A model generated the notes under the pieces. It was not told where the DNA came from, made no database searches, and was given only the letters and a program-made list of their open reading frames with translations. The translations under genes were made by a program, and so were the position numbers. DNA of 64,000 nt from Bolinopsis microptera (lineage: Eukaryota; Ctenophora; Tentaculata; Lobata; Bolinopsidae). Where the stretch lies: assembly GCF_026151205.1 (NCBI RefSeq), contig NC_087072.1, positions 11,694,169 through 11,758,168 on the forward strand, in the 5' to 3' direction. Of this stretch, positions 3,045-34,236 are shown piece after piece (the stretch's first letter is position 1; each line of letters opens with the position of its first letter).

Positions 3045-3117
3045 ATGAGTGTGATGATCTTATTCGTTCTCTGGTTGGTTATGGGGAACATCACTGCACA
3101 GGAATCTTCAGACGATG
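3045..3117 (+). CDS. Exon 1 of the receptor-like gene: signal peptide
   Basis: Codes for MSVMILFVLWLVMGNITA followed by QESSDD, a typical n/h/c signal peptide with likely cleavage after residue 18. The donor G|GTACAA leaves phase 1, and exon 2 starts in phase 1 after CTGCAG, so joining gives a clean glycine codon. The palindrome ATGTTCATT...AATGAACAT lies just upstream. Unspliced, the frame would run on to 3239, but that tail is non-native hydrophobic and basic sequence. Long-range linkage to exon 2 is inference. Confidence 0.6.
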
Positions 3118-6100
3118 GTACAATTTTATTTATTATAAGTATCATAGTTTTGATATTTGGCCTTCAGATTGTATTCAGTATTGATCCAATTAGAATAAGA
3201 TATTTAAAGGTGTACACCGAGATAGGGAAAAAATGTTAACATTTTTGTTTTTTAACTCAATCTGATAGTCAAGCGAATATATTATTATTAACTTCCGCAA
3301 AATTTAGGGACACGCAAGTGAGGGTGTCGCCCTCTAATTGGCCACTAAAATTAGGGTCGCTCGAGTAGATGCAGCATACTATCGCTGTGTCTACCCTCAC
3401 TATTACATTGTTTACATTTGCAATGCCGCGTTTTTTCTCTGTTCACGCAATCATGACACATTCGTTTTAACCGGTAATACTGAGCACTAGTAGTTTGTTA
3501 TTGTTAACACGATTAGTTATTTAACTATGCCATCTCGTATCACTAGTTACAAGTTATAATATCACGAGTTATTTTAGTATTCTTAGTCACATCCAATTCT
3601 TCAATACTCGAACGACGTTACAGAAATAAAGTACCTAGCTGAATGGGCGAATGGCTGAACAACCGCCTTCGAAGAAGCAGAAACCAGGAGGATCATTTTG
3701 TGTTGTGGGTGGTTGCTCAAATCGTAGTGGCCGAAATAAAGTAAGTGATCACAGTGGAAGAGGATTTCTAAAATACGTCAGACTACCCAAAGATCAAGCT
3801 TTAAAGCAAAATGGGTTGTGGGGATGAATAGAGATTCACGATCATGGCAACTTAGCCTAAGTACAAGATTTTGTACTGATCACTTTTTCCTGAATGACTT
3901 TCAAGAGGGCGATTTGGAACGATATCATGCTCTAACCAATCCTGAAACTCGCACATTGATTCGCTTGAAAGTCGATAGTGTACCAAATACAGATCGAAGG
4001 ACTGGTAGTTTCGCCAACCCCCTAGTCCAAACAATTACAAAACGACCACCCCCTAAAGAAAGACTATAGTTGAAATGAAAACGGCAGGGTCGACTGATGG
4101 CATAGATATAACACGTTTACCAACCTTTACTAATGTAGTAACCTGGCGTAACTCTCTGTTCTATCCAACTAATGTTAACTTCAGTTCTCCCTGGCAGATG
4201 GTGGACAGTGTAAGACGTTGAGTGCATCGACTTTTTTTTCTTAAAAAGTCATAAGATGGTTAGAATTGGTAGGATTTGAGGATGGGTAGGGTAGGTAGGT
4301 AGGTTTTTCGTAGGGTCACAAAGGAAAACATGCATTACCCTCCGCATAGCCATTTTAATGCATCTTCTCCGCGTGCAGACCAGTTATGGTTTCGTCGCCA
4401 CGGTTACCCTTAACAAGGACAGTCTGCAGCTAATGATTGACCAACTCCACTCATTTTGCACTAACTGGGGATTGATTGTTAACATTAAGAAAACTGCGGT
4501 CATCATCTTCAATCCCTCAGGAAGGCAGTTACTCGAGAGTAAAACATTTACCTACGGCAGAAGTATTGTAATCCCTTCGGTCAAAAGCTACTGCTACCTA
4601 GGTACTCATTTCACAATATGTGGCAGTATGAAGCTTAACCAAGAGCAGCTCAGGATCAAAGGACTTCGAGCATACTTCTCCCTGAAAAATACGGTTGATC
4701 TCTCCTCAATTTCTAAAGAGGCTGTGTTCAAACTCTTCGATGCCCTTATACTTCCTGTCGTCTCATACGGTAGTCAGGTGTGGATCCCCTATACCAACAT
4801 TCTCAGCAACATCTGTCAGAAGAAAACACAGTCCGACAAAGACACACTCAGTCAATTAGCGAATGACAGCATCGAGCGCCTGCATCTCTCGCTGCTAAAA
4901 TGGACGACTGGGGTCAACAAGAGAATTTCAAATATCCCGATATGGGGATACACAGGAAGATATCCCCTTGGAATACAACTGAGTAAGCTCTTTCTTGACT
5001 TCCACAACAGGCTCGTCCTCCTTGATAGAAAAAACTCACCACAGATTGATCGCCATGCTTTCGTAGAGCAAAAAAACCTAGAGCTGACCTGGTTCCGAAC
5101 ATTCCGAGAGCGCTGACCGAAGCACTTGACCCAGGAGCAATTAAACGAACAATTGTCTCGAAGAATGTTCCCATGCCGATCAGCCAACTCGTTCGGAGTA
5201 GACTGAGAGATTGGTTCCAACAAAAGTGGGAAAAAGCTCGACTTGAAAACAAAAAGCTTGCATTCTACAACAAAGTCAAAAGCAGCTTTGGATTAGAACC
5301 ATACCTATCTCTACCCAATCACAAGAAAACCCGATGTACCACATGGCTGAGGACAAGCTCCCACAAAGACGGGGAGATATGGCTGGAAAAATTCAAGTAT
5401 CTTCTACAGAGCTTGCCACTTTTGCTGCAGCTCAGACAGAATCACCATAGACCTCCTGAACGAGCTCCCTTTTAGTGACATCATTAAAGAAGACGAAGTC
5501 CATCTGCTTAAAGAATGTCCTGTCTACAAGGAGATCAGACAAAGAAACATCACAGACCTTCACAACATGCTCACAAATAGTCAATTCAGTAAACTATTTA
5601 ATGAGGATTACATTTTGAGACCAGAAATTTTGTTTATAATCTATTTCGTGAAAGATTTCCTAAAAGTAAGCTATGACTTAGTATCCTTATTCCGTGCACA
5701 CTTTGAATCCATTTATTTATTTATTTACGATATTATGTTTTTATTGTTTGGTTGAATAACTTTCATTTAACTGATTGGGATCTGATACATGTAATATTGT
5801 AATGATCTTTCTAATTTCTAATTTCTAATTTCTAATTTCTAATTTCTAATTTCTAATTTCTAATTTCTAATTTCTAATTTCTAATTTCTAATTTCTAATT
5901 TCTAATTTCTAATTTCTAATTTCTAATTTCTAATTTCTAATTTCTAATTTCTAATTTCTAATTTCTAATTTCTAATTTCTAATTTCTAATTTCTAATTTC
6001 TAATTTCTAATTTCTAATTTCTAATTTCTAATTTCTAATTTCTAATTTCTAATTTCTAATTTCTATAAATTCATTCCCGTTTTACATAGGCATAATGTTT

Positions 6101-6766
6101 CGTGTTAAATGTTAAAGTCGTGTCAAACATCGTAAGGCTCTGGTCTTTGTGCTTTGGGTTTTAAATTTCGCACAACCTTGAGGCTTGATAGTGATAAGTC
6201 CGCAGATTTGTGATTTTGTCGTTTAATTCCACAAAAATTGATTACTTTGCGAATATGAAATTATAGCGAATGAATTTGAATTCTATGGTAATTGATTTGA
6301 ATAACAAGCGATTTCCCGGATCTTAAACATGTGTTAAGTAGTTTTAAATTCAAGCTTTTCTTTACGGTACACAGGCGCAGGATAACGCCAAACGCGGTGT
6401 TCGGTCATTTAACTTTTTAAATTTGAATAACTGACAATGGCAATTCCCTTACATTTTGTGCTCCGTATAGCGCCCAAAGAATGGTGAATGAAGACAGAAG
6501 AACAGTTAATTGATATTTTGACCAACATGAAACGATTTTTATTTAAAATTTTAAAAGGAAATGCCTACTGTCGATAAAAATCTAGCGTCCGCTAATTCTA
6601 AACGGCGCAATTCTTGTTAAAATTTCATCGAACAAAGCTTCCGACTATTTACCAATATCCTCAAACTTCATTTACTTTTAGTAGTTGGCCTTCAAATTCA
6701 AAATTGATCCCATTGAAATAAGGCATTTTAGACAAATAACATCGCTGTATTATTGATTATCTGTAT

Positions 6767-6800
<34 letters not shown>

Positions 6801-9800
6801 AATGGCATAAAATGGCATAAAATGGCATAAAATGGAGACTTTTTCTATGGAGAAAATGGAAAAACCCATGAGTAATTCTCCATTTTCTCCATTTTATGCC
6901 ATGAATTTTGTCTTCGAAATTTCATCTTTAACACCATTTAACACCTAAATTGGACATCCTAACATGTTTATTTACGCTTACTAGGGGCGTAACAAGCTTA
7001 TGAAAGCTCATAGTAGGCTACTAGATGCTTATACTAGGTAAGTAGAGGCACACTTTAGGCAAACTCATAATTACTCAAGCCTAGTGTAAATTTATTTCTA
7101 CAGGCTACAGCAGGAGTGAGTAATAAGGGAGGGTAATAGGCACTGAGAAGTGAGACCTACATCCTCGAAAGTCGAAACGAGCTCGCACTGCAAAGGGGAG
7201 GCCTACCTTCCGAGATCGCATTACCAGGGGGAAGCCTCGAGTCCAAATTTGTGTATCGAGGGGTAGGTGTAGACTTCGATAAACCGAAAAACCAAAAAAA
7301 TATTTTCGGCTAATAATGAAGAGGGTAGCATGAAACGTGGAGAAAAGTGGTTTTTAGAAAAACTTTGAAAAATTTTGACTTAGAAAATTTTCGGCCCGAG
7401 TCATTCTCGATACGTACCTCTCGTATCGAGAGCTCCCGATTCCGAGCTCGTGTTGCAAAGGGGAGGCCTGCCTTCCGAGATCGCATTACCAGTGGGAAGC
7501 GTCGAGTCCAAAATTGTGTACCGAGGGGTAATTTTCTAAGTCAAAATTTTTCAAAGTTTTTCTGAAAACCGCTTTTCTCCACGTTTCATGCTACCCTGTT
7601 CATTATTTGCCGAAAATATTTTTTCGGTTTTTCGAAGTCCACACCTTCCCCTCGATACACAATTTTGGACTCGAGGTAATGCGATCTCGGAAGGCAGGCC
7701 TCCCCTTTGCAACACGAGCTTGGAATCGGGAGCTCTCGATACGGGAGGTACGTATCGAAAATGACTCGGACCGAACATTTTCTAAGTCAACTCTTTTCAA
7801 AATTTTTCAAAATTTTTCTAAAAACCACTTTTCTCCATGTTTCATGATACCCTGTTCATTATTGGCCGAAAATATCTTTTTTTTTAATAATTTTTCTCGA
7901 AATTCTAAATTTTTCAGGTTTTCAATGGCATAAAATGGCATAAAATGGCATAAAATGGAGACTATTTCTATGGAGAAAATGGAAAAACCTATGAGTAATT
8001 CTCCATTTTCTCCATTTATGCCATTGGCCCCCCCCCCGGCCTCTGTATCTGTATAAGAGTTAAAAAATAATAGTTGATTTGCCGCACGTTACATATCCCT
8101 TTTGTGCACCAAAAAAAGGTAATCATTTTTGTCTAAATGTTTGTTTAGGTTTTTGTTGAACTTCTGAAATACCTTCAGCATCTTATTTTAACTATTAGCT
8201 GTTATTTAACGGAATTTATTGGGTAAGAATATCGTTAGAAGTAAAGTAAAATTTAAAATAGTAGACTGATTAAAAATATTCCCGTCAGAATGATCAATTT
8301 ATTTTCAATTAACAATAAATAACCCATTAGTGAAAATAATTCACAAACTCACAACTGCAGGGTGGACAGCAGTAACAGTACGTGGCATCACTAGCGAGCC
8401 AATACCCTTCCCACTTGAATCTACTTCACTGGAGATAAGGACTGATAGTCGGCTGGGAAGTTATAGTGCAGTGTGGGTGTATTTCTACGATACCTCAGAA
8501 AGACCATCAGGAGGAGTTGCTATCTTATTCTTATCTACCAAATACCAGTACTGGCTCTACTACTGCAGCAGTTCCAGGATTGATTTCCCAGTTACTCTGC
8601 CCTCCACTACTGACAAGATATGGAGGATTACCCTGACACGCAGTTCAGGTGTCAGAGTTGTTATACACTGTAATAACGAGGAAGTAGGTAACGTGCTGCT
8701 ATCAGACACCTTGTGTAGTGACAGTACGTTAGAGGGTACGTGGGGAGACTACTGGAACAGAGAGACGGAGTATATAAAATTTGAACGCAACGAAGCCTCA
8801 GATTACTATAGAGAGGCTAAAACAGGTTATTAACATCAATCATTTTATATTACAGTAACCAGATATATTGTACGTGGCCTTTTTTTATTTTTATTTTTAT
8901 TTTTATAAGAGAGGCTGGGCCAAGATAGCCCACGAGAGGATAGCATTGAGATGCTCTGCCTACCTCTGGGATGTGGCAACCTTGGGGAAGGTTGCCGGTG
9001 AAATCAGAGTGATTGGTGGAGGATGGTGTAAGATGATATATGAGTCAAAATAATAAGCTTAAATGCCAGCTGGGTTTGGAAAAGTAAAACGAGACGAGAC
9101 AGCATATGAGATAATACTTTAAGTCACCCCGGTCTGATCCAGCTCTTCCGGCACAATTAAGCGTTTGGTGCGGTTTGGTGCGGTTTGCGACAATTGTGGT
9201 GATGTGTTGGTTGTCGAATATGTCATTGACAGAGAGGTAGTAGTCCTGGAAATATTGACCTCTAATTTGGGCAATAGCCGGACACTGTCCAAGGAAGTGT
9301 GAGACAGTTTCCTCTCCGTCGCCGCACATAGGACAAGCACTGGTGTTTGATTTGCAAATGGTGTGAAGGTGTTTGTTTAAGCCGCAGTGACCCGTGATGA
9401 GGTGAACTGCAGTTCTGTAATCTTGTCTGTTTTTGCTGAGTGTAGTGTTGAGGTTTTTGATGATTTTGGCATGCTTGTGGCCGAGTGTCAGTTTGGTGTG
9501 TCTGGGACCGTCAGTTAACCAAGTTTCCTGATTCAGTCTGTTGACTTTGTTGTCGATTTGACGCTTGATGTAGGATTGTGGAATTGGACACTTCAAAGTG
9601 GATTCACTGGTTGTACCAAGCTTGGCCAGCTCATCTGCTTTTTCGTTCCCCCACAATCCGATGTGTGCTGCAATCCACCGTATCTCTAGCGTGTTGTTGG
9701 ATCCGAGTGCATTAAGAGAGTCGTAACAGTCTCTTGTAGCTCTACTCCGCGTTGAAAGCGCAGAGATAGCTTGTATAGATGAGAGACTGTCAGACCATAT

Positions 9801-12800
9801 GATGATATGTGTGTTGGTATAGGTAGAGAGATATTTGCAAGCTTCAATGATGGCGGTGAGCTCTGTTTGGTAAACAGTGCAATAATCAGGGAGCTTGAAT
9901 GATCTTTCTTCAAGGGTGGTATTATTGTTGTCAGTTGTGATGATATAGCCAGCCCCGCATCCTGAGTCTGTGAGTGACCCGTCAGTGTAGCAGGTGATCG
10001 TTTCACTGGTAATGTTGTCAATGGTGTTTTGAAGTGAATTTCTATATTCAGTGGTATCGGCTCCAGGAGTTGTGACGGTGAAGTGCCGTCCCAGCATCAT
10101 GGTTGGTGTTGTTAGGTCTCTCGTTGCTCTAGGTGGGATAATGAGGTCTGCCATGAATTGTTTGTTGATAGTGGTATGATTTTTGATAGCTCCCTTCCTG
10201 AAGGCAATAGTTTCAAGAGTGAGGCTGCCATAAGCTTGTAGCCTGGCCGCACCCTTTGCTGCTTCGCCTTGCAGGAACAGTATGATGTCAGAAGTGTCGG
10301 TGAGGTGATTCAATGCGATAAAAGGTGTGCTTGGCATGGCACCAGACATCATTCTGAGTGCCAATGCCTGAACACGTTTGAGTTTCTTCGCGTTATAGTC
10401 CGTTTGAGTGGCCCTGATCCATATACTACAGCAGTAGGATAGGATTGGACGGATGACAGCCGTGTACATCCATTTGCATGTTTTGGGGCTCATACCCCAT
10501 GTGGGGCCGACAGCTCTTCGACATTGCATGAGGGATGCCGTGGCTTTTTTGGTGGTGTTGATGATATGTTCATTGAAGTTGAGTTTGCTGTCCAAGGTCA
10601 CTCCTAGAAATTTAGCAGACTTGGAAAGACCTATAATGTTGTTGCCAACTGTTATAGGTCTTAGAGTCCACTTACTATTCCAGGTAAACATGACTATCTG
10701 AGTTTTAAGGGCGCTAATAGATAGCTCTTTGGTTCTGCACCAATTTTCTATCGTTTTAATAGTTTTGCATGTTCGGTCCCAGATGATGTCTAAATCATCC
10801 CCTTCCGCTAGAGACAACAGATCATCCGCAAAGGCTTGCAGGTAACCCGGGATGTCTTTTGCGGTAAAGGAAAGGAGATCGTCGACTACCAGGTTCCAGA
10901 GAAAAGGAGAGAGAATGCCTCCTTGGGGGCAACCTCGCCTGATCCGTACCCTTCTCGACTTATCCTTATGATTTAGTGTGATGAATCGATTGGTTACCAT
11001 GTTGATGATCCACTGTGCTGTAGCCAAGTCCACTTTCGTAGCCTTGACTGCTTCAGAGATAGCCTTGAACGAGACATTGTCGAAGGCGCCCTCTATATCT
11101 AGAAAGACACCTAGGACATATCCTTTCTTGGCTATTCTGCGCTCAATGGTGTGAGTAACTTTATGAAGTGCCGCTTCTGTGGAGCAGCCCTTCTTAAAGC
11201 CGAATTGTCGTTTGTTGATATCATTAGCTATGTTGAGGTCATGTTGCATATGCCATAAGATCACTTTCTCCTGCAACTTTAACATCACAGGCGAAAGAGT
11301 GATCGTTCGAAATGACTTAGCTTTGTTGTAGTCGGTTTTTCCAGGCTTAGGGAGAAAGATTCCAAGAGAGTCCCTCCACAAAGTTGGGATGTGTTGCGTT
11401 TCATGGTTTTTTGTCATAATGTTTTTCGTTATGTCTTTGATATGAGCCCAGGCTTTCTGGAATATGATAGGTTTTAGAGTGTCAGGTCCTGCAGCCTTCA
11501 AGGGATCGAAGGATAGGAGAGCCTTTTCGATTCTTTCAGGGCTGTAGATTTTGTCTAGTAAGTCTGTGGAGATGGGTAAGGGGCAGAGAGGCGGAACTGG
11601 CGGATCAGTAACACTCTCCTTGAAGTGGGTTTGAGTCATGACCTCCAGTGTCTCCTCTGCGTTTTTGGTGAGTTCGCCATTTGGTTTATAAACGGCTTCA
11701 AGTTTGTTATTGGTGTCAGTACAGGTTTTCAGAATCTTGTTCATCCTTCCAGATTCCTTAACCGATTCTGTGTCTGCGCAGAATTTCCGCCACGCATTGC
11801 GCTGGGAGTTGGACAGGATCTTGTTGTATTGCTTGTTGCTTTCTCTAAGAGCGAGCCACGAAGCATCAGTTTTGATTCGACGAGCTGTGATGAGTTTGCG
11901 TCTTATACCCCTCTGTGCTTCCTCAACTTCTCGAGTTAGCCAGGGTGGTTTTCTGACAGCGCTGGAGATGTAAGTAATGGGACATGCCTCCTCGAAGGCC
12001 GCTCGGAGAGCAGTATTAATGGTGTTAACTTTGTGATCAATGTCGTGTGGTGTGTTAACGCAGGTGTTGTGGAGATCATTGTTGTTGTAAAGAATCTCGT
12101 CAAATTTCGCCTAGTCAGTGTTCTTGACTAGGCGTATTTGTCTTGGTTCTTTTTTGGGACCAGAAGTAATGTCGAACATGATATATCTGTGATCGGAGTT
12201 TGAGTAAAGATCACTAACGTGCCAGTTACTGATCAGTTCAGCCCCCAGTTGGTTGGTAATAGTGAGGTCAATGATGGAATTATGACCTCGTGAGTTGAGG
12301 AATGTTGGAGTTGAACCTTTGTTGGAACAGGAGAGCCCTAGCGACGAGAGGAAATCAAGTAGTTCCTCTCCTCTTCTATTGCACAACCTGTTACCCCAAA
12401 GAGTGTGTTGGGAGTTGGTGTCAGAGCCTATTATGAGTGGTATTTTGTTGTCTATAGCGTATTTGGCTAGAGGTGTGGTTTCGTGGGATGGAGCTGGTCC
12501 ATTAATATCCATGTACGAAGCTGCCAGAATTACTTCTGTCGAGCTAAGTTGAATCTTAATAGCAACTTGATCCGGGGTTGTGAATTGCGATAGTTCCCAA
12601 CTTTTTTCAGCTAGGTTTTTGTGTATTACTATGACGGCACGGGGCCTAATGTCCCCAACTTTGTAATAATACTCGGTTAGTTCTTTGCTTATTGGTGGAA
12701 TTAGGTGTTTGTTATTAGTGTATGGTTCAGTCGCTAGTACAATAGGATTTTTCCTGCCATGAGTGTTCACCAGCAGGGTTTTCCAAGCGTTGTACTTGCG

Positions 12801-15800: not shown

Positions 15801-18800
15801 AAGAGAGACACTGGCAGCTGGCCACTCTCCCCAATTATGGGTTTTGGTCAAATTATGTTAAATAAAATCCATACTACAGTACATAGCTAGCTGATGAAGA
15901 GAAATTAAATCATAACTGATTTTTTCCATCGACTTTTTTTCTTAAAAAATCATAAGATGGTTAGAATTGGTAGGATTTGAGGATGGGTAGGGTAGGTAGG
16001 TAGGTAGGTAGGTTTTTCGTACGGTGTCACGTGTCACAAAGGAAAACATGCATTAGGGTCTGCCCACACTACGCCTCTTCACATAGCCATGTGTCTACGC
16101 GTACTGCGTGACGCGCTTGTTTCACAAGTAGATAGCAAGCGAGAGGGCTCTGGTTAGAGCAACTACGCCTCTATTCCCCGAAGGTCTGCCTACACTGTCA
16201 CTACGCCATGTGACGACGGGCCATTTAAAAAATTCGTGCCTCTCTTCCCCGAGAGTTTCCACGCCAACTGGCGGGAGCTCTGCGCCTCGTTGTGTGAATC
16301 CGGTTTTTTTGACCCACGTCATGTGGCCCGTCACCACATGGCGTAGTGTGTTGACCATTGTTAATGATCTGGCCCGGCGCGCGCTACTTCGTAGCACTTG
16401 CCGTCGGGCAAGAAAGCGGGCCGTCGAGAAGAAAGCGGCGCGCGCTACTTCGAAGAAATTTAGACGAGTAAAATCCGTCAACGTAGTGTGGGCAGACCTT
16501 CGGGGAATAGATGTGTAGTGTGGGCAGACCCTTACCCTCCGCATAGCCATTTTAATGCATCTTCTCCACGCGCGCAGACCAGTTATGGTTTCGTCGCCAC
16601 GATTACCCTCCGCATACTATACGTTTGCCATGCACGATTCGACGATTGAGTTACACTTTCAAATGCGCGGCGCCAAGCTTACTGTAAGTTTTCATGACAG
16701 TTAATTACAGTACGTCAGCGTATTATATATATGTCATTACAATGATTTATTCTTGATATGTTGTTTTGAAATGGATTTACATATAAATTCATTCCCGTTT
16801 TACATAGGTTTAATGTTTCGTGTTAAATGTCAAAGTCAGCGAGACTTTCACTGTCGGACAACCTTAAGAGTCTTTTGCTGCTCAAGGAATACGGAGCTAT
16901 CATAAATTCTGCCCATGTGCAAGAACTGGGCAAATTCCTTTGCAACTGTCACCGCATCAGGAACCCGAAAAAGACGCCAATACTGCCTGTCACCCCATCA
17001 AGACTACCAACTCAACATACATAATACAGATCATCATTATGCAGATTTCACGATCTGTTGTACGAGCACGGAACACTAGTGTTTACTGTTTCCAGTACTA
17101 TACGTTCGATTATGAATGTGTCTTTTGAGGACTCGAATACTGATATCACTGTTTAGTGATCATTGAAGTTGCCTTTTACTACTTCCTCTTATGTTAAATT
17201 ATTATTTCAGCATTTATTTCTATTTCGGTTGTTTGTACGGGAGTTAAATTTTAAGTGCTTGTGTTTTAAATTTTCATGACTCTTGAAACTCGAATTTTAT
17301 TTACTCTAGTTATGTTATTCATTCATGTATAGTCGAGACGATGGTGTTAGTGCCATCTCCGACAACTTTACGTTTAATTCCGTTTAATTCCGTTTAATTC
17401 TGTCATACATCGTAAGGCTCTGGTACGGTCTTTGGGTTGTAAATTTCGCACAACCTTGAGCCTGAGGCTTGATAGTGATAAGTCGGAAGTCCTCAGATTT
17501 GTGATTTGGTGAAGACAGAAGAACAGTTATTTAATATTTTGACCAACATGAAACGATTTTTATTTAAAATTTTAAAAGGAAATGCCCACTGTCGATGGAA
17601 ATCTAGCGTCCGATGGAAATCTAGCGTCCGCTAAACGGCGCAATTCTTGTTTAATATGAAAAGAGAGATATTTGACACCTGAAAATTACGGACAATGAGT
17701 CAAAAGAACACATTGTGTGTTAAGTGAATTAGAAATGACAGATTTCTAACGATACTTGATACTACGAAGTAAGCACAGCTTACACTGTACAGTAAAATCT
17801 CGCTATCGACAGCTCACAATAGAATTAGCAATGAATTTAACCAATAACGATCAACTTATTTATCAATGAATACCATGTCCATACCCTTACCAACATTGCA
17901 TTAGCTCATCAGTTTATCAAGTTATCGTATTTCATGACAATATCAGTGGCTGCTGAACTAGCCAAAATGCCTATAGGGCAGATCGCATAATAAAATTGTG
18001 TATAAAAATATAATAATATATAAACAAGAATTGCGCCGGTTAGCGGACGCTAGATTTCCATCGACCGTAATTAAATTTAATTACGATTAGCGATCGTTTC
18101 ATATTGGTTAAATGACCAAATTTCTTTTTGGGCGTTACAGAGAACAAAATGGTTATGGAGGGGTTGCCGTTGTCAAATATTTAAATCGAAAGTTAAACGA
18201 CCGGACACCGTATCCTGCGCCTGTGCGGTGTTATGCAGTTACAAGTTTGAAGAACAAAAGCCATGTGAAGGAATCGTTGTTTACAAGTTTACATAAGTTG
18301 TTAGATTAAATAAAATGGTATTGCTAGTCGTGAAATCCGGAGTAGGTAATGTAACTCATAATTGATAATAACATTTATGATCCATTTCGTATAACATATA
18401 ACAAATCAATCACTCGACAATCATGTTCAACATAATATCAGCATCATAATTTGTTCAACAGTATAACGGATTACTAATATCATTATCGGGAGCCAAGCAG
18501 TGGCGTAACGTTGCCTGTTGCCCCCCCCTCCCCGCCGAAAAGGCGCCCCCCTGTTGGCGCCCCCTAAAATTGAACAAAAACATTAGGTGATTTTAGAGGA
18601 TACGCCGGTAAAATCTCTAAAAAAGTGTGTATATATCTAGAGCAAAACGCGCAGTTTTGCTAGTACTTTAAGTTTAGTTAAGTTTTCGGTGGTTGTACCA
18701 AGCACTCACAACAAAACGAGAAGTTAGTATGCTGTACCGCATCATGATCAATGATCAAGTAAAGAAAAGCTTGAACTACTTAACACATGTATAAGATCCG

Positions 18801-21800
18801 GGAAATCGCTTGTTATTCAAATCAATTACCATAGAATTCAAATTGTATGCTTGGCGCCGCGCATTTGAGGTTTAATTCAATCAATCGTCAAATCGTGCAA
18901 ACGTATGCGGAGGGTAACCATGGCGACAACACCATAACTGCTCTGCGCGCGGAGAATATGCATTCTAATAAAGTATGCGGAGGGTAATGCATGTTTTCCT
19001 TTGTGACACGTGACACGAAAAACCTACCTACCCATTGGCACTATGTTTCACATAGCCATGTGTATACGCGTACTGCGTGACGCGCTTGTTTCACAAGTTG
19101 CGCTACTGCAAGTGAGACTGAGAGGGCTCTGGTTAGAGCAAGCACTATGTCTATACCCATTCTCAAATCCTACCACTTCTAACCATACTTATACATTATA
19201 CTTTTTTTGAAGAAAAAAGAAGTCGATGGAAAAAATACTTCATTTGGTATGCAAACATTTTGAAGGATCTGTTTTAAAAATACAATAGAATCATATTCAA
19301 GGTATACGCATGTATAATAAACATAAAAGCTGTCTGCAAAATGCCTCTATCACATTCTCCCCACTAAATTGGATTGTCTAATTGTCTAACATTTTTCTCT
19401 AAGAGAGAGAAAAAACTACCGAGAATTTTGTCTAAAATTGTTCGTTAACAAGAATTTCGCCGCGGTTAAACCACGCACGATCAATTTTCCCAGCCCTACG
19501 ATGTACTTGTACCATTAATTCTTTTGAGTGAAAACAGAAAAGTGTGACTAGAAAAACATATTTACACGCTTTGTTTTTTAAATAAATGAGTGGGATTTGA
19601 TTCACGATGTCAACGTCCTTCGTGCTTCGCAGCTCGGTGAGGCCCAGTGCATGGTGCATCTCGCCGATCTACCGTGGTTGCGAGAAGAATTATTGGATGC
19701 GCGGCGCGGCCCAGTAGTGCATCAACAATAAATGAATCCTGAAAATTGTGGAAAATAACTTTGCGAAGGAGCTGAGGAACTTCACTGTAATTAATTAACA
19801 CATGGCTAGTGTCGCGCGCAGCATAACAGATGCTTCCTATACACATAATTATAGGTTAGTGGTCTATATTGCGAAGGAGCAAACTTTTGTCGTCAACGTA
19901 GGACCGTCGGGCCACCTCATATATCCAAACCCGATTACTCATTCCCTACGATCTTTTTGCCATCGGCAAGAGCAGGGAAAAAAATCATAGTGCTCTACAA
20001 GTACAGCGGGTGAACCAGAAAATTATAAACTTCTAGCTCGACGAACCATATGTACAAAGTTAGCATGTAAGAGTTTCTTTATGATTTTAAAGAGCTGGTC
20101 AAATAGGTAGTCACATGACCATGTCAGAACTATTTAATCTGACCCGGAACTCTAGAGCATTGCAAATCGGAGGATCTGGCCATAGAGAACGGAGTAATGA
20201 CCGTACACAACGAAGCTACAACGCCCTACGAGCAGGGAGTGAAGGTCAGCTACAAGTGCAATGATAGGTTCAAGTTGGTGGGGAACAGTGAGCTGACTTG
20301 TAACAACCGAGCGTGGAGTAATGCCGCCCCTCTTTGCAAACGTAAGATATGTTACAGTTAGGGCGTGAGGAAGTAACGAACTTGCATATATATATCAAAC
20401 TATCAGCTGTATATTGACAACTCTCACCAGTTAGTTCGAATTGATTGATTAATCAGAGGAAAGTTTAAAAGAAGTAAAAAAATTAAAAGTTAGAACAACT
20501 CACTCAACCAGCTGTTAACGCGATGTGCCCGTCATACGAAGTGATCAACGGCAAGGTCATGGACGAATCATCCGGCCCATTCCTTACTACTGAGGTGATA
20601 AGATATACTGATAAGGATTGATAATCATGAGATCCTATTCCATCTTAATTGCGGTAATCTAGAAAGTTTTCATCCTAGAAAGGTGAACATCTGTTGCAAT
20701 TATTCACATGTGAACTTGTTTAACTCATCAAACTAACACTCCCTCACTAGAGCGTCAGTGCGATATGTGAACTTGTTTAACTCATCAAACTAACACTCCC
20801 TCACTAGAGCGTCAGTGCGATATGTGAACTTGCTTACAACCTGAACGGAACTAACCCCCGTGTATGTGCGGAGGCAGGATGGAAAACAGATGCTCAAAAT
20901 TGCGTTTACAAAGGTAATTACTAGTGATTTTGTTATGGAAAAATATTATTTGTATGAAAAATAAAGATTTTGTGTTAACCAGTGATAAGAGCGATTCCAC
21001 TTTATTACAGGGCTCTTCGTTATATCGTAGATCAAATTAATTCTACCGGAATCTAAAATTCTTACTAAGAAGAGTTTCCCCGAACAGAGGGAAGATGTCC
21101 GCCACTAAAGCACTTGGAGCACGGAGGTCTCTCATGTAATGGAGGTTACACTTACATTATTAAAAGTTCGTGCACTGTCTCATGTGACCCAGGATACATT
21201 TATCTGAGCGAAATTAAGGTAAACATTAACCACGACTCCTTGTGTTACCGTGCCAAGCTGTTAATTAATACCTCGATCGTAAAAACATAATTATGTTAAA
21301 AAAATATTAATATATATAGTATATAATTTTCCTGACTTCTGTTATCCTACAGAAAGTGACCTGTCAAGAAGATCTACGGTGGAGCCACCAGTCCTTTACC
21401 AACAGTCAGGGAAACTTTGCCGCATGTGCTAAACAGGAGACCCCCAAGTCCCATGTCTTAGAAGTAGAACTTTACCTTGACGTGGATTACTGTAAGACAG
21501 ATCCAGAGAAAGCAGCTGTGGTTGCTGCCTTTGAAACTTACATCCATTCTGGTTCTGCGGCTGTGCCCTGTGTTACTGGTGCTAAATGCACGGTTAGTTT
21601 CTCTTTCAGTAACTCCTTAATTAGTTGTCTAGTTTGAGAAGATCAGTTTCAACATGATAACTCCTGACCCACCTTATCATAATTACATTAAGACTGTTCT
21701 TCAAAATTTGATTATCACCCACGTACCGTGTACACGTCATTGTTTATACGATAAAATTAAATCATCTCAACACTTATCAGGTACAAAATACCAGCTGTAA

Positions 21801-24172
21801 GAATGGTGATGGATCGAGTGTAGTGAGCTTTGAGCTTCTGCAGTATGGAGACCTCTCTTCAGAAGACGCCTCCACTCTTACTTCCTCAGATTCAAGGCTC
21901 AAAGAGCTTGTCACCGCCGAAGCCATGACTTTTGAGTGAGAAGGATATTTAAACTTTGAAATGAATGTAGTATTTAAAGTGTGGCATATCAGGGGATTTC
22001 ATTGAACCGATTGCCATACAAACAACAAAAATAGTTTGATAATTTTTGACATAATTCTAAATTCAAGACTTTTCTCAGAGTAACAACATCAAAGAAGAGA
22101 GCGACTACGAGATTCACAGCTGAGGACGGCAGTTATACCGGGAACGTGAAAACGGCTTGTGAGGCTGGGTTTGCTCAAATCTCGGGTTCATGCAGTGAGT
22201 CATTAAATATTAGAATAGTGTTAAGTGTTATCAACCTACCAGTACCATTTCATTAGTCTTAAACCTCTGTGAAGAGAAAATTTGTTGCATTATTCATTCA
22301 TTACATTTGTCTGATCTTGCTGTAAAAGCCTCTTCAACATAAGAATATGAATTGAACGATGATCCATTTAAACTAATTCGTTTCATTTTCAGTCACGTGT
22401 CCGGCGGGATATCACATCCCGGGGGGATATATCTGTAACGCATGTGCGGTGGGAACCTACAGTACGGCTCCCAACTCTGTGGGCTGTGAGAAGTGTACCA
22501 GTGGCTCCACTACTTATGGTAAAGGTAGCACCAGCAGTGGCGATTGTAAGGAACTCTGTAAGGTTCCTGGGGTGAGTTTATCTGGGGAGAATTGTTTATT
22601 CTTCTGAAACTTTTCACTATCGAATACACGCGAAAAGTTCATTGAAATGAACCGAAAAACTCGAAGTATGAAATTTCCGGATATTTTAGTTAGGGATCTC
22701 CGTTTGACGAACCTTCTTTCAGGTGACACACGGCAGCATGTCTCCTCCAACAGGATACAACGTAGATCCCAACACACTCATCAAGATGACTTGCGACAAT
22801 GGGTCCGTTCTGCACACGGGAGAAGAGAAGTTTAAATGTAGTACTGGCATAGTTCCTACTTGCAAGGAAGATGGAGGTAAGAAACTTGGTTCAATAATTT
22901 CGTATCTCTGCAAATTGAAGAATTAGTGTCCACGGTGAGGGTAGGGCAAATCTGAAGTAACTGGCCCGAAATATGCAAGTATACATGTGCCTCGTTTATT
23001 AATGTACGCCTCTGATCAAGAAGGCATGGCATTCTTCTGGATCAACACTGATATGTTCAATAATGACAGATAAAGTGAGTGATGGTGGAGGCTCCACAAC
23101 AGTGATCATAGTCGTGGTTGTGGCGGTCCTTGTCATGCTAGCAGCTGTAGTGATTGCTGCATTCTTCATCAGAAAGAGATACTTGGTAAGAACTTGATTA
23201 AAATTATATTTTATTACTGGAATTTGTAACTGAGATTGACTGATTTGCATTAGATTGCATTGAAAGATTGAATGGTATGGATGAATGTATTGCGCACAGT
23301 TATTATTCATGATTATTGATTATTAAAATCAATCTGATTTATTAAGAAACTGTTTACACCATTAAAATATTCAAAACCCCTAAAAGAAATAAAGTCATCC
23401 TAAAATGGTGATCAGTACAGATCGAGACAGCTAGAGTAAAAATTTGTTTCTCCAAGCAACTCTATCATCGGCTAATATCTTATGCTTATTAAGATCATTC
23501 AAAGAGTTAAGTTTTAAACCTCTACGGGTCAAATCATTCACAATAATCTTGAACAAATTCTTACGATGCGCACCGACACGCCCTTTACAGTTTGTTGTGA
23601 CAGCAAACTTTAACGCTAATGCAGCGGGGGAGTCATCAGCACTACGCAAGATATGACCTAGGAGCTTCCACCTTGATTTAGGGACACGATCTGATAGCTT
23701 TACTGAGTTACATCTTAGGTATAAGTTTGCATTGGATATTGTTTCATGAGGCCAATAAATGTTCAGTAATGATCTAAGGTGTTTTCTATGGCAAATGTCT
23801 AGTTTTTCTAGTGACTTTGCAGTAGGACACCAACTACTGCAATTGTACATGATGATTGATACAATTTGGGCTTCGTATACTGCTATCTTTCTGGTAACGG
23901 AGATATTTCATACTCAGAATTTATGAATTACCGACAGAGTGACTGAGTTCGAACCTGATTATAAATGAAGGATTAGCCAAATGTTGATCTAACATTAGCA
24001 TAGAATTGCACTCCTTTAATTTGCATGTTGATTGTTGATTTACACTCAATTCTAGAAGAGGGTAGGGCGTGGCCCTGAAACTGCAACTGTTCTGGTCAAT
24101 AAGAAGGCTCCTACTAATGGTCATGGAAATGGAAGTGAAAATGGGGAAAATGATTACGATACTAGAATTTAG
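3045..24172 (+). CDS. Single-pass receptor-like protein: signal peptide, GCC2/GCC3-like and sushi modules, one TM helix (15 coding exons)
   Basis: Joined exons: 3045-3117, 8361-8825, 14824-14892, 15062-15208, 20156-20341, 20512-20594, 20808-20913, 21088-21218, 21353-21592, 21781-21935, 22079-22194, 22393-22571, 22723-22876, 23070-23185, 24056-24172. All junctions have GT/AG and matching phase. The sum is 2337 nt, an uninterrupted 778-residue frame ending in TAG. Predicted order: signal peptide 1-18 (cut after NITA), unrecognised domain about 26-170, Cys-rich GCC2/GCC3-like 183-252, sushi 1 254-313, sushi 2 318-376, sushi 3 379-444, an unassigned region 447-590, a second GCC2/GCC3-like motif 592-640, sushi-like module 4 645-698, transmembrane helix about 712-735, then a 43-residue tail. 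A cell-surface adhesion or recognition role is inferred from architecture. Exon 1 lies 5.2 kb upstream of exon 2; its membership rests on phase 1 and signal-peptide content. Confidence 0.78.
3651..4221 (+). pseudogene. THAP-type zinc finger protein remnant (frameshifted)
   Basis: From ATG 3651 the frame reads FCVVGGCSN, then KYVRLPKDQ; after a one-base slip in the A-run near 3810 it continues KWVVGMNR, FCTDHF and DFQEGD. This is the C2CH order of a THAP DNA-binding domain (C-x4-C ... C-x2-H, with LPKD, the invariant W and the F-D-F tail). The frame stops at 4067. A further frame (4075-4221, LPTFTNVVTWRN and SPWQMVDSV) looks like its continuation after a second slip. THAP domains occur in P-element and Harbinger-type transposases and in host regulators; no transposase core is left to tell which. 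It lies in intron 1 of the receptor-like gene. Confidence 0.65.
4225..4410 (+). repeat. End fragment of the 3.3-kb inverted-repeat element family
   Basis: Contains GCATCGACTTTTTTTTCTT, the TAGGTAGGTAGG run and TACCCTCCGCATAGCC, all also present at the left end of the element at 15919-19236. A LINE starts abruptly at about 4411 within it. The family continues at 6065. This copy shows an uninterrupted CATGCATTACCCTCCG site, the empty-site counterpart of the MITE at 16056-16531. Confidence 0.65.
4411..5807 (+). pseudogene. 5'-truncated LINE: C-terminal part of reverse transcriptase ORF
   Basis: Starts just past the RT active site with LNKDSLQLMIDQL, then INIKKTAVI-like VNIKKTAVIIF and YLGTHFT, the conserved thumb-side block of APE-type non-LTR RTs, then ALILPVVSYGSQVW. 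The protein continues after frameshifts near 5110 (KRTIVSKNVPMPISQL) and near 5465 (EDEVHLLKECPVYKEIRQRN, part of the usual Cys/His tail), stopping at 5755. Upstream residues of the long frame (4358-4410) come from the interrupted repeat. The exact clade cannot be assigned from this fragment. Confidence 0.75.
5808..6064 (+). repeat. (TTTCTAA)n tract, about 36 copies, forming the LINE 3' tail
   Basis: Near-perfect head-to-tail 7-mer directly after the 3' UTR of the LINE at 4411-5807, ending where the interrupted host repeat resumes with ATAAATTCATTCCCG. Its position marks it as the element's microsatellite tail instead of poly(A). Confidence 0.9.
6065..6640 (+). repeat. Internal fragment of the 3.3-kb inverted-repeat element family
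   Basis: Blocks such as ATAAATTCATTCCCGTTTTA, CATCGTAAGGCTCTGG, GATTTTTATTTAAAATTTTA and CTAGCGTCCGCTAA recur at 16782-16830 and 17400-17650 and, inverted, at 18030-18240 and 18790-18850. No protein-like frame. Confidence 0.6.
6768..8041. mobile_element. G-tract fold-back element with 8-bp target duplication (hAT-like, non-autonomous)
   Basis: Bounded by TCTGTATC on both sides (6760-6767 and 8042-8049). The left end is a 31-base G run then CCAATGGCATAAA; the right end is the inverse, TTTATGCCATTGG then a C run and GGCC. Each end also carries ATGGCATAAA three times. Inside, the unit GCAAAGGGGAGGCCT occurs at about 7190 (+), 7455 (+) and 7690 (-), so much of 7190-7810 can fold back. An 8-bp duplication is typical of hAT elements; assignment beyond that is inference. 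Several short frames inside are repeat artefacts. Confidence 0.7.
8361..8825 (+). CDS. Exon 2 of the receptor-like gene: unrecognised extracellular domain
   Basis: One large phase 1-1 exon of 155 codons between CTGCAG and ACAG|GTTATT. It reads as an extracellular beta-rich domain: WTAVTVRG near the start, repeated aromatic blocks (VWVYFYDTS, YWLYYCSSS), then KIWRITLTRS, RVVIHCNNEEV, LLSDTLCSDS, TWGDYW and YIKF. The V-x-H-C-N-N and S-D-x-x-C-S-D segments look like a conserved core. It vaguely recalls farnesoic-acid-methyltransferase-type (FAMeT) beta domains, but I cannot assign it. The upstream ATG at 8330 lies in the intron. Confidence 0.75.
9045..12932 (-). pseudogene. LINE ORF2: APE endonuclease, reverse transcriptase, RNase H, Cys/His knuckle; single nonsense codon
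   Basis: Reads as one frame of 1295 codons with a single TAG at 12111-12113, where NTD-stop-AKFDE suggests a former TGG. Endonuclease about 35-270: ATEPY, IIGSDTNSQHTLWG, SNSDHR. RT about 515-790: SFRTITLSP, GFKKGCSTEAA, FLDIEGAFD, GCPQGGILSPFLWN and the catalytic FADD near residue 701. RNase H about 978-1106: CYTDGS, YQTELTAI, WSDSLS, AHIGLWGNEKADELA, i.e. the D-E-D-D set. Knuckle CPMC...H...C near 1226. APE endonuclease with RNase H after the RT places it in the I/LOA/R1 group. The frame up to the stop could yield an endonuclease-only product; the downstream ATG at 11744 would lack it. Confidence 0.9.
12910..13341 (-). CDS. Short ORF1 of the I-like LINE
   Basis: From MTDSGNEMYQL (ATG at 13341) to the stop at 12910, 143 residues, overlapping the ORF2 start by 23 nt. 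The frame is open further upstream to 13848 through the 162-bp repeats. No zinc knuckle, coiled coil or RRM is obvious; the C-terminal end is basic and Ala/Arg/Pro-rich. Its role as an RNA-binding ORF1 protein is inferred from position only. Whether the longer frame is translated is unclear. Confidence 0.55.
   Translation of the reverse strand: MTDSGNEMYQLHNTDETLIFAERRFSDLRLTSDIIVIKGPISTTLRGNAHIISHILIHNNSLSLNPTPPWNRIQITNIWEAVAVQLHEGGGPSTEFKQRQRIWVDVSPSGETFLEKHSFLPETLAAAIRLRPAPRHSAQSKRS
13373..13696 (-). repeat. Two tandem 162-bp monomers in the LINE 5' region
   Basis: The blocks GTGGATTCCTTGGTGGTTGC, GCAAGGCTGTGAAGCCTGCG and CCTCCACTGGTAATCCGGTG each occur twice at a spacing of 162. The monomer length is a multiple of three, so the ORF1 frame stays open. 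Repeated 5' monomers in LINEs often carry promoter activity; here that is inference. Confidence 0.8.
14498..14611 (+). repeat. 19-bp tandem repeat, about 6 copies
   Basis: Degenerate unit TATAGTAACTAGTGTACAG directly after the LINE's right target duplication, in the intron before exon 3. Confidence 0.8.
14620..14727 (+). repeat. Left member of an inverted repeat pair flanking receptor exons 3-4
   Basis: Contains GAATGAAATCGGTCGCTCG and CCCATTCATTCACGGCTT. Matches the reverse complement of 15695-15799 over about 105 bp with scattered mismatches; a shorter third copy lies at about 15461-15500. Confidence 0.75.
14824..15208 (+). CDS. Exons 3-4 of the receptor-like gene: Cys-rich GCC2/GCC3-like modules
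   Basis: Exon 3 (14824-14892) codes for RDGAQCRKCDPGFQPDLPQ. Exon 4 (15062-15208) codes for CPAGSYKNFDMDTCAECPDN, followed by C-x2-C spacing and GDGKQRNLDGTEC. The C-P-x-G-x-Y ... C-x2-C-P pattern is that of the ephrin-receptor-like GCC2/GCC3 family, small disulfide-bonded extracellular modules. Both exons are phase 1-1 (69 and 147 nt), so each could be skipped or shuffled without breaking the frame. Exon 4 joins exon 20156-20341 in phase (GTEC then E-H-C). Confidence 0.82.
15695..15799 (-). repeat. Right member of the inverted repeat pair flanking receptor exons 3-4
   Basis: Reverse complement of 14620-14727, ending CCTTTAGTTTGGG. The two arms enclose exons 3 and 4 and could pair in the pre-mRNA. 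Confidence 0.7.
16056..16531. mobile_element. MITE with GGGTCTGCCCACACTAC terminal inverted repeats and TTA duplication
   Basis: Ends GGGTCTGCCCACACTAC and GTAGTGTGGGCAGACCC are inverse, flanked by TTA at 16053-16055 and 16532-16534. The related locus at about 4330-4350 reads CATGCATTACCCTCCG without the insert, so the boundaries are confirmed by an empty-site copy. A second inner pair (TTCCCCGAAGGTCTGCC against GGCAGACCTTCGGGGAA) makes it largely self-complementary. Confidence 0.85.
16078..16161. mobile_element. Short SINE-like element, copy 1, with 10-bp target duplication
   Basis: Begins TTCACATAGCCATGTG, contains TACGCGTACTGCGTGACGCG and ends CTCTGGTTAGAGCA. Flanked by ACTACGCCTC at 16068-16077 and 16162-16171. 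It sits inside the MITE at 16056-16531, so it is younger. Other copies: 19047-19141 and 27763-27964. The ends are not inverted repeats and there is no poly(A). Confidence 0.75.
18503..18690 (+). repeat. Dispersed repeat starting CAGTGGCGTAACG (copy B)
   Basis: Same block order as 1896-2090, including GAGGATACGCCGGTAAAAT and the GCAAAACGCGCAGTTTTGC hairpin, in the same orientation. Confidence 0.7.
19047..19141. mobile_element. Short SINE-like element, copy 2, with 9-bp target duplication
   Basis: Same ends as copy 1 (TTCACATAG ... GGTTAGAGCA), flanked by GCACTATGT at 19038-19046 and 19142-19150. It interrupts the right arm of the 3.3-kb inverted-repeat element. Confidence 0.75.
19430..19990 (+). 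repeat. Dispersed repeat (CAAGAATTTCGCCGCGGT family), copy 1
   Basis: Blocks AACAAGAATTTCGCCGCGGT, GTGGTCTATATTGCGAAGGA and CTACGATCTTTTTGCC recur in the same order at 49880-50165, with a partial relative at 51590-51780. About 200 bp near 19600-19790 has no counterpart in the second copy and may be a further insertion. No gene seen. Confidence 0.65.
20156..20341 (+). CDS. Receptor-like gene exon: sushi module 1
   Basis: A single 186-nt phase 1-1 exon codes for one complete sushi/CCP domain: HCKSEDLAIENG, VKVSYKCNDRFKLVGNSELTC, AWSNAAPLC. The four cysteines, the Y-x-C, the G-x-x-x-L-x-C and the W-x3-P-x-C positions are all present. One domain per symmetric phase-1 exon is usual for sushi proteins. 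Confidence 0.9.
20512..20913 (+). CDS. Receptor-like gene, two exons: sushi module 2
   Basis: Exon 20512-20594 (MCPSYEVINGKVMDES, ending phase 0) and exon 20808-20913 (SVSAICELAYNLNG, VCAEAGWKTDAQNCVYK, ending phase 1) together form a second sushi module split by a phase 0 intron. The second acceptor (CACTAG|AGC) lies in the downstream copy of a 57-bp tandem duplication; the first copy would hit TAA after 9 codons. Confidence 0.8.
20708..20821 (+). repeat. 57-bp direct tandem duplication spanning a 3' splice site
   Basis: The unit from ATGTGAACTTGTTTAACTC to CAGTGCGAT occurs twice with period 57, then a third partial start at 20822 is the functional exon. Each copy carries the acceptor CCCTCACTAG|AGCGTC. 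Confidence 0.9.
21088..21592 (+). CDS. Receptor-like gene, two exons: sushi module 3 and start of an unassigned region
   Basis: Exon 21088-21218 codes for GRCPPLKHLEHGGLSCNGG, then SCTVSCDPGYIY, ending phase 0. Exon 21353-21592 opens with VTCQEDLRWSHQSF and NFAACAK, closing the sushi module, then moves into a different region (HVLEVELYLDVDYC, AAFETYIHSG). The latter alternates strands and helices and is not sushi-like; a SEA-like or related fold is possible but not shown. Confidence 0.8.
21781..22194 (+). CDS. Receptor-like gene, two exons: unassigned extracellular region
   Basis: Exon 21781-21935 (TSCKNGDGSSVVSFELLQYG ...) uses donor GA|GTGAGA, leaving phase 2; without splicing the next codon is TGA. 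Exon 22079-22194 (RFTAEDGSYTGNV, CEAGFAQISGSC) picks up the phase and ends phase 1. The ending C-E-A-G-F...C leads straight into the next Cys-rich module. With the end of the previous exon this makes about 145 residues that I cannot place in a family. Confidence 0.75.
22393..22876 (+). CDS. Receptor-like gene, two exons: GCC2/GCC3 motif and a fourth sushi-like module
   Basis: Exon 22393-22571 codes for CPAGYHIPGGYICNACAVGT, then YSTAPNSVGCEKC and a G-S-T-T-rich C-terminal part, a textbook GCC2/GCC3 (ephrin-receptor-like) motif. Exon 22723-22876 codes for VTHGSMSPPTGYNV, IKMTCDNG and FKCSTGIVPTC, a short sushi-like module begun by CKVPG at the end of the previous exon. A juxtamembrane position follows. 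Confidence 0.85.
23070..23185 (+). CDS. Receptor-like gene exon: transmembrane helix
   Basis: Starts DKVSDGGGSTT, then about 24 uncharged residues rich in V/I/L/A and closes with FFIRKRYL, the positive stop-transfer flank. With the N-terminal signal peptide this makes a type I membrane protein. Confidence 0.88.
23431..23850 (-). pseudogene. LINE reverse transcriptase C-terminal tail (139 aa)
   Basis: Reads LEKLDICHRKHLRSLL, NIYWPHETISN, SRWKLLGHILR and GRVGAHRKNLF, ending at 23431. This is the C-terminal tail shared by a group of APE-type LINEs (R-x-H-L-R-x-L-L ... W...GH-x-L-R ... G-R-x-x-x-N-L). Related tails lie at 47386-47532 and 55118-55429. It lies antisense in the last intron of the receptor-like gene. 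Confidence 0.75.
24056..24172 (+). CDS. Last exon of the receptor-like gene: cytoplasmic tail
   Basis: From TTCTAG|AAG it codes for KRVGRGPETATVLVNKK, a G/N/E-rich stretch and NDYDTRI, then TAG. The tail has no kinase or death-type domain. The last three residues T-R-I fit the class I PDZ ligand pattern (S/T-x-hydrophobic), and Y-D-T could be a phosphosite; both are pattern-based inferences. Confidence 0.85.
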   Translation, partial: KRVGRGPETATVLVNKKAPTNGHGNGSENGENDYDTRI

Positions 24173-33335: not shown

Positions 33336-34236
33336 TCATAGGAAAGTGTTGAAGTTTAAGTCCTGCCAGTTAATATTGTCAGGTTGGTGTTGAGCCTTCA
33401 TGATAGAAAGCTTCAATTGGGATTTAATTGAGCCTAGAGAACCTATTTTACCACGTGCATTTGACTGTTCAAGAAACGTATTCCATAGATTTGCCCCTTT
33501 ATATGCGAAATTGTGAGATGAGTGTGGTGTCACAAATCTGTCATCTCTGAGCTGAGACTTCTTAAAGAGAGAATACATGGATATGGGCTGATGACTCTTC
33601 ACTATCTTCATTGTTTCAGTAATGCATCTGTATCTATATATGTTATGTACTGTCATTAGTTCCTTAGATTGGAAAATAGGTTTTGTTGATTCTCTAGAGT
33701 GGAATTCTGCCCCAAGTATTTGGCAGCGATGTGGCCTTGCTTGTTTATCACCAGTCTTCCTCAAGCTGATACATATAGAACACGGTTTAATGTGAGGTAT
33801 AGTTGATTCATTGGATATTTGACCTTTCTTGTTTATACTGCACTGGATTGGCCTGCTACGAGAACAAGTTTTAAACTTGTCGCTAAATGCTTCCGAGTCC
33901 CCAAATAAGATTCGGACACATTTCTTCTGTGCAAGGAATAGTGGTGAAAGCTTATTAATTGATACACCACCCCATACAGTTATACCGTATCCTAGATGAG
34001 ATTCAAAAAGAGTGTGGTATATCTGTTTGTACAGCTGGCTGGGGAGGGAGTTTTTTATTCGATAAATACGGCCACATATGCTGTTTAATTTCTTAGTTAG
34101 TTTCTCGATATGAGGTGTCCAACTCAGTTTGTCATCAATAATTACACCTAGAAATTTCGTTTCAGTCACCTGTTTGATCGGGATCCCATCAATTTCTAGA
34201 TTCAAGTCATTTTCAGTATTATCAATGGTCTTACGT
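33336..34236 (-). pseudogene. CR1/L2-like LINE fragment: RT C-terminal third
   Basis: Reads KTIDNTENDLNLEIDG, TKFLGVIIDDKLSW, SHLGYGITVWGG, QKKCVRILFG, then DKFKTCSRSRP, a Ser/Cys/Lys-rich stretch absent from the relative at 39596-40762, and CQILGAEFHSRESTKPIFQ, ending at 33336. This matches the thumb and connection region of CR1/L2-type RTs. 5' truncated, no stop within. Confidence 0.78.

Follow-up and report, generated by a model that had tools for sequence, protein, structure and literature searches.

Which kind of protein is encoded at positions 3045-24172 of the window, and how did its gene come together? The window is the whole stretch of Bolinopsis microptera DNA that was analysed, 64,000 nucleotides long (C1:11694169-11758168), and the genome searched comprised 264,652,675 bases in 232 contigs (C1, C2 and so on). 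An earlier note had described a receptor-like protein of 778 residues, encoded by 15 exons over about 21 kb with GT/AG at every junction, matching phases and no internal stop. We rebuilt the model from the sequence with the same endpoints. Again 15 exons over about 21 kb were obtained; the introns are GT-AG throughout, the phases are compatible and no internal stop is present. The coding length is 2358 nt (785 amino acids plus stop), which makes the product seven residues longer than the earlier 778, with a total that is still divisible by three. The donor of the first exon is weak (GTACAA). The gene model at 3045-24172 is confirmed.

All exons lie on the forward strand. E1 (3045-3117) carries the start codon, a predicted signal peptide (MSVMILFVLWLVMGNITA; the hydrophobic N-terminus covers residues 1-19 by hydropathy) and a phase-1 donor. 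E2 (8361-8825) encodes an uncharacterised head domain of about 155 amino acids (residues 25-179), E3 (14803-14892) a Cys-rich GCC half-module, and E4 (15062-15208), the last exon of the head cassette, a GCC2_GCC3/Ephrin_rec_like module. The shared body starts at E5 (20156-20341), which encodes sushi 1; E2, E3, E4 and E5 are each symmetric with phase 1-1. The two halves of sushi 2 are encoded by E6 (20512-20594) and E7 (20808-20913), the first part of sushi 3 by E8 (21088-21218), and its end together with the start of a stalk by E9 (21353-21592), the stalk continuing through E10 (21781-21935) and E11 (22079-22194). E12 (22393-22571) encodes a further Ephrin_rec_like (GCC2_GCC3) module, E13 (22723-22876) a fourth module that is sushi-like by eye, E14 (23070-23185) a transmembrane (TM) helix at about residues 718-742 followed by the basic stop-transfer flank RKRYLKR, and E15 (24056-24172) a short cytoplasmic tail with a T-R-I end, which we take to be a class I PDZ-type motif, and the stop codon.

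A domain search for sushi and GCC2_GCC3, as the earlier note had proposed, placed both families above the Pfam cut-off: Sushi (PF00084) with 64.8 bits against a cut-off of 20.7 in three stretches of the product, and Ephrin_rec_like/GCC2_GCC3 (PF07699) with 28.9 bits against 23.1 in four stretches. Two more Cys-rich Pfam families match below cut-off. The Cys-rich modules of the earlier description thus hold (the product contains 43 cysteines), and of its four sushi modules three stand, the fourth (E13) being without a Pfam match. The stalk was labelled SEA-like by eye; it has no Pfam match and two weak unrelated PDB matches. The signal peptide, TM helix and basic flank described before are all present by hydropathy and sequence, and with one TM helix and a basic inner flank the product is predicted to be a type I single-pass protein. 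No Pfam match to the GPS motif was found in the window product, which with its one TM helix is not classed as an adhesion GPCR.

The most distinctive part of the product is E2, which, judged by its sequence, encodes a separate uncharacterised domain that is neither a sushi nor a GCC module. A search with another member of this family gave at least 151 genomic matches (445 candidates, 150 scored), some of them partial, and a stop codon is present in seven of the 150 matches listed. An alignment was made of 21 E2 sequences: 17 of 20 exons fetched from the higher-scoring part of the genome protein search (L024, L029 and L037 were left out), the window copy, two of six copies on C6, and one copy on C7 (C7a). 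In this alignment the cysteines are invariant and the second half of the domain is conserved, around KVWRITLTRTAGVRLVIHCN. Pfam searches with the 21 members gave eight scattered weak matches, each in one or two of the 21 (best E 0.013), the single match in NCBIfam was weak and unrelated (best E 0.027, three of 21 members), and an hmmsearch of the PDB with the alignment gave none at E ≤ 10. A farnesoic acid O-methyltransferase-like identity (Methyltransf_FA, PF12248) was considered and rejected; none of the 21 members matches it, and there were no genomic matches in a search in which the controls were silent as well. A peptide pattern was matched by 57 stretches of prokaryote contigs and 39 of viral contigs, none of which encodes a relative within the reach of the scans. 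Similar unannotated stretches may exist in cnidarian or lancelet proteins, and we therefore do not claim the domain to be specific to ctenophores. The sponge or cnidarian setting implied by the proteome search suggested earlier is probably wrong, the host being the ctenophore B. microptera. An AlphaFold prediction from the single window sequence failed to give a fold (mean pLDDT 39.4). The E2 domain is probably all beta; its strand positions were read off this low-confidence model and the entropy pattern described below.

Paralogous loci were found by protein search of the genome and by exon-by-exon tblastn, recurrence being defined on genomic sequence as conserved exon order and splice sites. 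E5 to E15 recur at two loci, on C13 (3.952 Mb) and on C1 (8.810 Mb). At both, 11 of 11 exons have intact AG/GT splice sites and stay open in frame, their lengths differ only by multiples of three, and the TRI end of the tail is kept, which bears out the earlier judgement that the fit of the model is beyond chance. The DNA of E1 matches two other places, both on C7. These homologues (MSLMILFVLGLVM... and MIQMILFVLGLVM...) lie 5.1-5.2 kb upstream of an E2 homologue, and both have an in-frame ATG and a phase-1 donor at the equivalent position; matches starting at window 14485-14640 (satellite) were left out of the comparison with C7. One of these two loci, C7:4899500-4914500 (L045, L046), is decayed, its E2 having a frame break and a stop. 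E2-E3-E4 recur on C6 in a tandem array with six E2, four E3 and four E4 copies, and the introns of this array also align with those of the window. Given the recurrence of E1-E2, E2-E3-E4 and E5-E15, every join of the model is seen elsewhere except E4-E5, which among the loci seen occurs only in the window.

Heads and bodies occur in other company at these loci. The C13 body is preceded by exons encoding a domain of about 136 amino acids in two copies, plus sushi pairs, which would be spliced to the body. This 136-residue domain, with 127 genomic matches (itself and partial ones included; many on C11), has no Pfam match at E ≤ 1, and represents a second large head family. An F5/8-type C (lectin-like) identity, assigned to it by eye, was rejected; besides the lack of a Pfam match at that threshold, two weak unrelated PDB matches were obtained. 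The body at C1:8.81 Mb is preceded by diverged body-like exons (E7-, E12- and E13-like). At one C7 locus, the exons behind E1-E2 are a GCC-like one and, some 10 kb further downstream, Ig-like ones (labels by eye). On C10, alternating GCC exons form an array behind an E2, and a sushi-like exon (by eye) comes after the array. Arrays on C9 and C8 end in the same way, with GCC and then a sushi-like exon, so that such an end was seen in three of five arrays examined (C10, C9 and C8; it is not listed at C2 and C12). The array-end sushi-like exon has no Pfam match (C9 copy tested), and no TM exon was found after it on C10, C9 or C8. At C10:13770028-13776776 and in other arrays the GCC exons stand in tandem with a spacing of about 735 bp and the copies are near-identical, so the arrays may differ in length from one individual to another. 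The E2-E3-E4 array on C6 is immediately followed by an adhesion-GPCR-like gene (C6:1648542-1657183, L011) with hydrophobic exons, a GPS motif (Pfam) and exons that resemble F5/8C, sushi, SEA and GCC modules; matches of a C6 exon to F5/8-type C are below the Pfam cut-off (E 0.0069 and 0.017).

Intron 4 lies at the one join limited to the window, that between E4 and E5. The C6 units match window 14516-15924, a segment with E3, E4 and the first part of intron 4; the intron that precedes E5 at C1:8.81 Mb matches window 17650-18027 and also, though with gaps, the sequence from 19226 on. At the boundary between head and body lies a 1.7-kb transposon on the forward strand (15921-17651, approximate ends), with a head-type left flank and a body-type right flank. 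The left flank reads ...ATAACTGATTTTT up to the element, where C6 runs on uninterrupted as AAAATTTC..., and the right flank (TTTAATATGAAAAG...) is uninterrupted at C1:8.81 Mb. A related copy on the same strand in intron 1 (4219-6618, approximate ends) stops where the head-type intron sequence AAAATTTC... begins, and by sequence comparison a third copy of the family lies inverted in intron 4 (18022-19230, approximate ends, reverse strand). The simplest account of the boundary is recombination between copies of one transposon in two phase-1 introns; alternatively, the transposon was inserted later, at a junction made in another way.

The reading that we lean towards, and which we hold to be somewhat on the probable side, is that of a diversified recognition receptor made by a transposon-linked fusion of head and body. 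A phase-1 intron would have been the place where a C6-like head array became attached to a body resembling the C13 and C1:8.81 Mb ones, and a single transposon, with head-type sequence to its left and body-type sequence to its right, would still mark the junction. Recombination between transposon copies would have been the cause of the fusion, and E4 would be spliced to E5. The locus can thus be regarded as a readable fossil of a head-body fusion, in which both parental introns and the transposon are still identifiable.

The same intron could be taken to separate two genes. E1 to E4 would then be left over from the beginning of a broken head array, and E5 to E15 would belong to a receptor of their own that has lost its first exons or has them elsewhere. 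The restriction of the E4-E5 order to the window would fit this, as would the length of intron 4 (4.9 kb, over half of it transposon) and the different exons that precede the two related bodies, other head exons on C13 and diverged body-like exons at C1:8.81 Mb. The scan for signal peptides was run twice, with first thresholds and then with relaxed ones. The first scan did not recover E1; its one weak candidate in intron 4, at 18315, would fit two genes. This candidate, like the open phase-1 stretches at 16136-16345 and 18091-18264, sits inside a transposon, and the relaxed scan found no signal-peptide exon in intron 4; in the window it picked out E1 and no other distinct candidate ahead of E2. 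The C6, C1 and C13 stretches scanned yielded one or two distinct candidates each, which indicates that such candidates arise by chance as well. Against two genes also speak the E4 donor and E5 acceptor, both of phase 1 and both intact, the composition of intron 4, which directly combines an intron of the kind following E4 with one of the kind preceding E5, and the use of the order E2-GCC-sushi-like (by eye) elsewhere in the genome. We regard two genes as unlikely.

A misjoin in the assembly, in which a head locus and a body locus were connected at the repeated 1.7-kb transposon, would likewise place the junction at an element whose terminus is repeated (its left terminus has at least 40 genomic matches, the window's own counted) and whose two flanks match different loci. 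However, the window lies inside a contig of 26.2 Mb (C1, 26,206,493 bases), and an element of 1.7 kb is short relative to long reads. Such a chimera is considered improbable.

Several other repeats were observed around the gene. Intron 2 consists mostly of a non-LTR retrotransposon on the reverse strand (8881-14484; endonuclease, reverse transcriptase and RNase H). It is flanked by 11-bp target duplicates (8870-8880 and 14485-14495), and the empty site is present on C6. Intron 1 contains a long TTTCTAA-type satellite at about 5819-6065 and, at about 6768-6799, a run of about 30 G that is a likely weak point of the assembly. More open reading frames of reverse-transcriptase type lie at window 29159-31457, 40656-41651 and 33336-34235; RVT_1 matches in Pfam were obtained at 29159-29776 and 40659-41651, and none for 33339-34235.

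The diversity of the head was measured between copies within one reference genome. Two sets of E2 copies were used, a far set of 19 of the 20 fetched copies (L024, with a stop codon, was left out) and a close set of eight (the broken copy C7b was left out). Among the 19 distant copies, the entropies of successive residues in the segments AVWVYF, AILFL and QYWLY alternate between 2.3-3.4 and 0.3-1.1 bits; Y67, the residue after QYWLY, breaks the alternation (2.0 bits). Over 34 positions, a stretch that was picked after seeing the track, the autocorrelation of entropy is -0.50 at lag 1 and 0.43 at lag 2 (permutation P 0.0004). The pattern suggests three predicted strands that are hypervariable at alternate residues, and the cysteines and other core positions of E2 are fixed while these residues vary. 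Since no fold was obtained for E2, the assignment of the variable residues to one face of a sheet rests on this pattern.

Between the window E2 and each of the six C6 copies, dN is 0.194-0.208 and dS is 0.055-0.077. In the close set, the maximum likelihood estimate of omega over 101 codons away from gaps is 2.41 (2ΔlnL 9.55, p 0.002). At the 22 codons that are variable in the independent far set omega is 9.27 (2ΔlnL 13.5, p 2.4e-4), and at the remaining codons it is 1.72 (p 0.15). In a codon bootstrap of the close set, dN ≤ dS occurred in none of 2000 replicates for all codons or for the variable codons, and in 11% for the rest. In the far set dN/dS is 0.84 overall and 0.46 at less variable codons, which confines selection above 1 to variable sites there; the omega of 3.95 at its high-variability codons is circular, the sites having been selected on those very copies. 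With the mask reversed, the far set gave 1.32 at variable codons and 0.61 at the others. The introns provide a neutral yardstick that is itself variable: divergence before E2 (211-257 bases) is 0.028-0.040 against the six C6 copies and 0.31 against C7a, in a stretch that is partly non-homologous, and divergence of intron 3 against three C6 copies is 0.09-0.10. Gene conversion among array copies may occur and weakens tree-based selection tests. For the other exons of the cassette, dN/dS against C6 is 0.077/0.013 for E3, with one pooled synonymous change, and 0.088/0.044 for E4, with five. Across three pairs of bodies dN/dS is 0.58-0.94 (sushi part 0.70-1.15, TM-tail part 0.26-0.66), indicating weak constraint on the body.

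These values bear on a further alternative, that of an ordinary fast-evolving adhesion or mucus/extracellular-matrix receptor that binds a sugar or matrix ligand in normal tissue and owes its diversity to duplication, weak constraint and gene conversion instead of to recognition of non-self. Adhesion proteins often contain modules of the sushi, GCC and SEA-like kinds; the dN/dS of the body (0.58-0.94) and of the distant E2 copies (0.84 overall) would suit such a receptor, and so would the adhesion-GPCR-like neighbour of the C6 head array with its GPS motif. Relaxation alone, however, cannot yield an omega significantly above 1, and the variation is concentrated on every second residue of the strands, with no change at the cysteines and other core positions. 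An adhesion or matrix receptor of this kind appears doubtful to us. Recognition is favoured because the amino-acid excess concentrates on the alternating strand positions. The earlier proposal of a surface recognition or adhesion protein agrees with the type I layout, the large head family, the hypervariable strands and a dN/dS above 1 in recent copies, adhesion being the less likely of the two functions. Its direction was broadly right, and it lacked the main feature, the unnamed hypervariable head in E2.

In the recognition reading, then, the product would be a type I cell-surface receptor of the ctenophore. After removal of the signal peptide, the E2 domain would form the membrane-distal head, which would bind a variable ligand through the putative hypervariable face of a sheet. 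This ligand may be microbial or allogeneic, and a matrix component is also possible. Two GCC modules, three to four sushi modules, the SEA-like stalk and one more GCC module would serve as a spacer that holds the head off the membrane. The single TM helix would be followed by a short tail whose class I PDZ-type end may link the receptor to intracellular scaffolds for signalling. Head specificity would have been diversified by amino-acid selection and also by the movement of whole phase 1-1 head cassettes onto shared bodies.

Resemblance to known proteins is partial. The sushi modules belong to the same Pfam family as those of the vertebrate complement-control proteins factor H, CR2, CD46 and CD55, and residues 272-398 align with factor H. 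The likeness to these complement regulators (RCA) is one of sequence between sushi modules only, and to our knowledge head, GCC and stalk modules are absent from all four. GCC modules are shared with ELAPOR1 (residues 181-258 align) and with the mastigoneme protein Mst1 (residues 180-262 align), both of which differ in overall architecture. In the type I allorecognition receptors of Hydractinia, the Alr proteins, the membrane-distal domains vary strongly and related loci exist. The window gene may be likened to them in its type I layout, variable membrane-distal domain and related loci, whereas Alr heads are Ig-like and the tails differ.

The nearest parallel appears to be fester of the Botryllus schlosseri allorecognition locus, in a likeness of layout. 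Fester is reported to be a surface protein encoded by 11 exons, with one exon-encoded sushi module, TM exons, three predicted TM segments and alternative splicing, and a selection signal was reported on its extracellular exon 3, which has no recognised domain (PMC3549757). Both are many-exon surface proteins with exon-encoded sushi modules and a selection signal on an extracellular exon without a recognised domain; unlike fester, the window gene has one TM helix, several sushi and GCC modules, a different head domain with at least 151 matches and diversification between loci. A survey of immune receptors in Mnemiopsis, Bolinopsis and Hormiphora was based on 20 Pfam domains, TIR2, NACHT, SRCR and CTLD among them, and reported large and shuffled ctenophore receptor families, some proteins of which contain sushi (PMC11797021). 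Because E2 has no Pfam model, a survey of that design could not find the family by its head. Literature searches on ctenophore allorecognition, hypervariable sushi proteins and immune gene families returned no description of such a family among the matches listed; the domain has no name to look up.

On a wider scale, we tentatively put forward as a possibility, one that we would not yet call probable, that ctenophores possess a combinatorial recognition system with well over 100 exon-encoded hypervariable heads of at least two mutually unmatched domain types, carried on phase 1-1 cassettes and swapped among shared bodies, with transposon-linked recombination in introns as part of the mechanism. 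Should the heads be recognition domains, they would be a concrete candidate for self/non-self or microbe sensing in ctenophores, which hints at a possible, so far unrecognised system of this kind in one of the earliest animal branches.

A minor feature of the body concerns E7. At window 20708-20836 a 57-bp unit is present in 2.3 copies and duplicates the E7 acceptor. If the upstream acceptor is used, translation runs into SVSAICELV and then a stop, giving a possible truncated form. The match pattern on C13 suggests that the unit is present there in a single copy.
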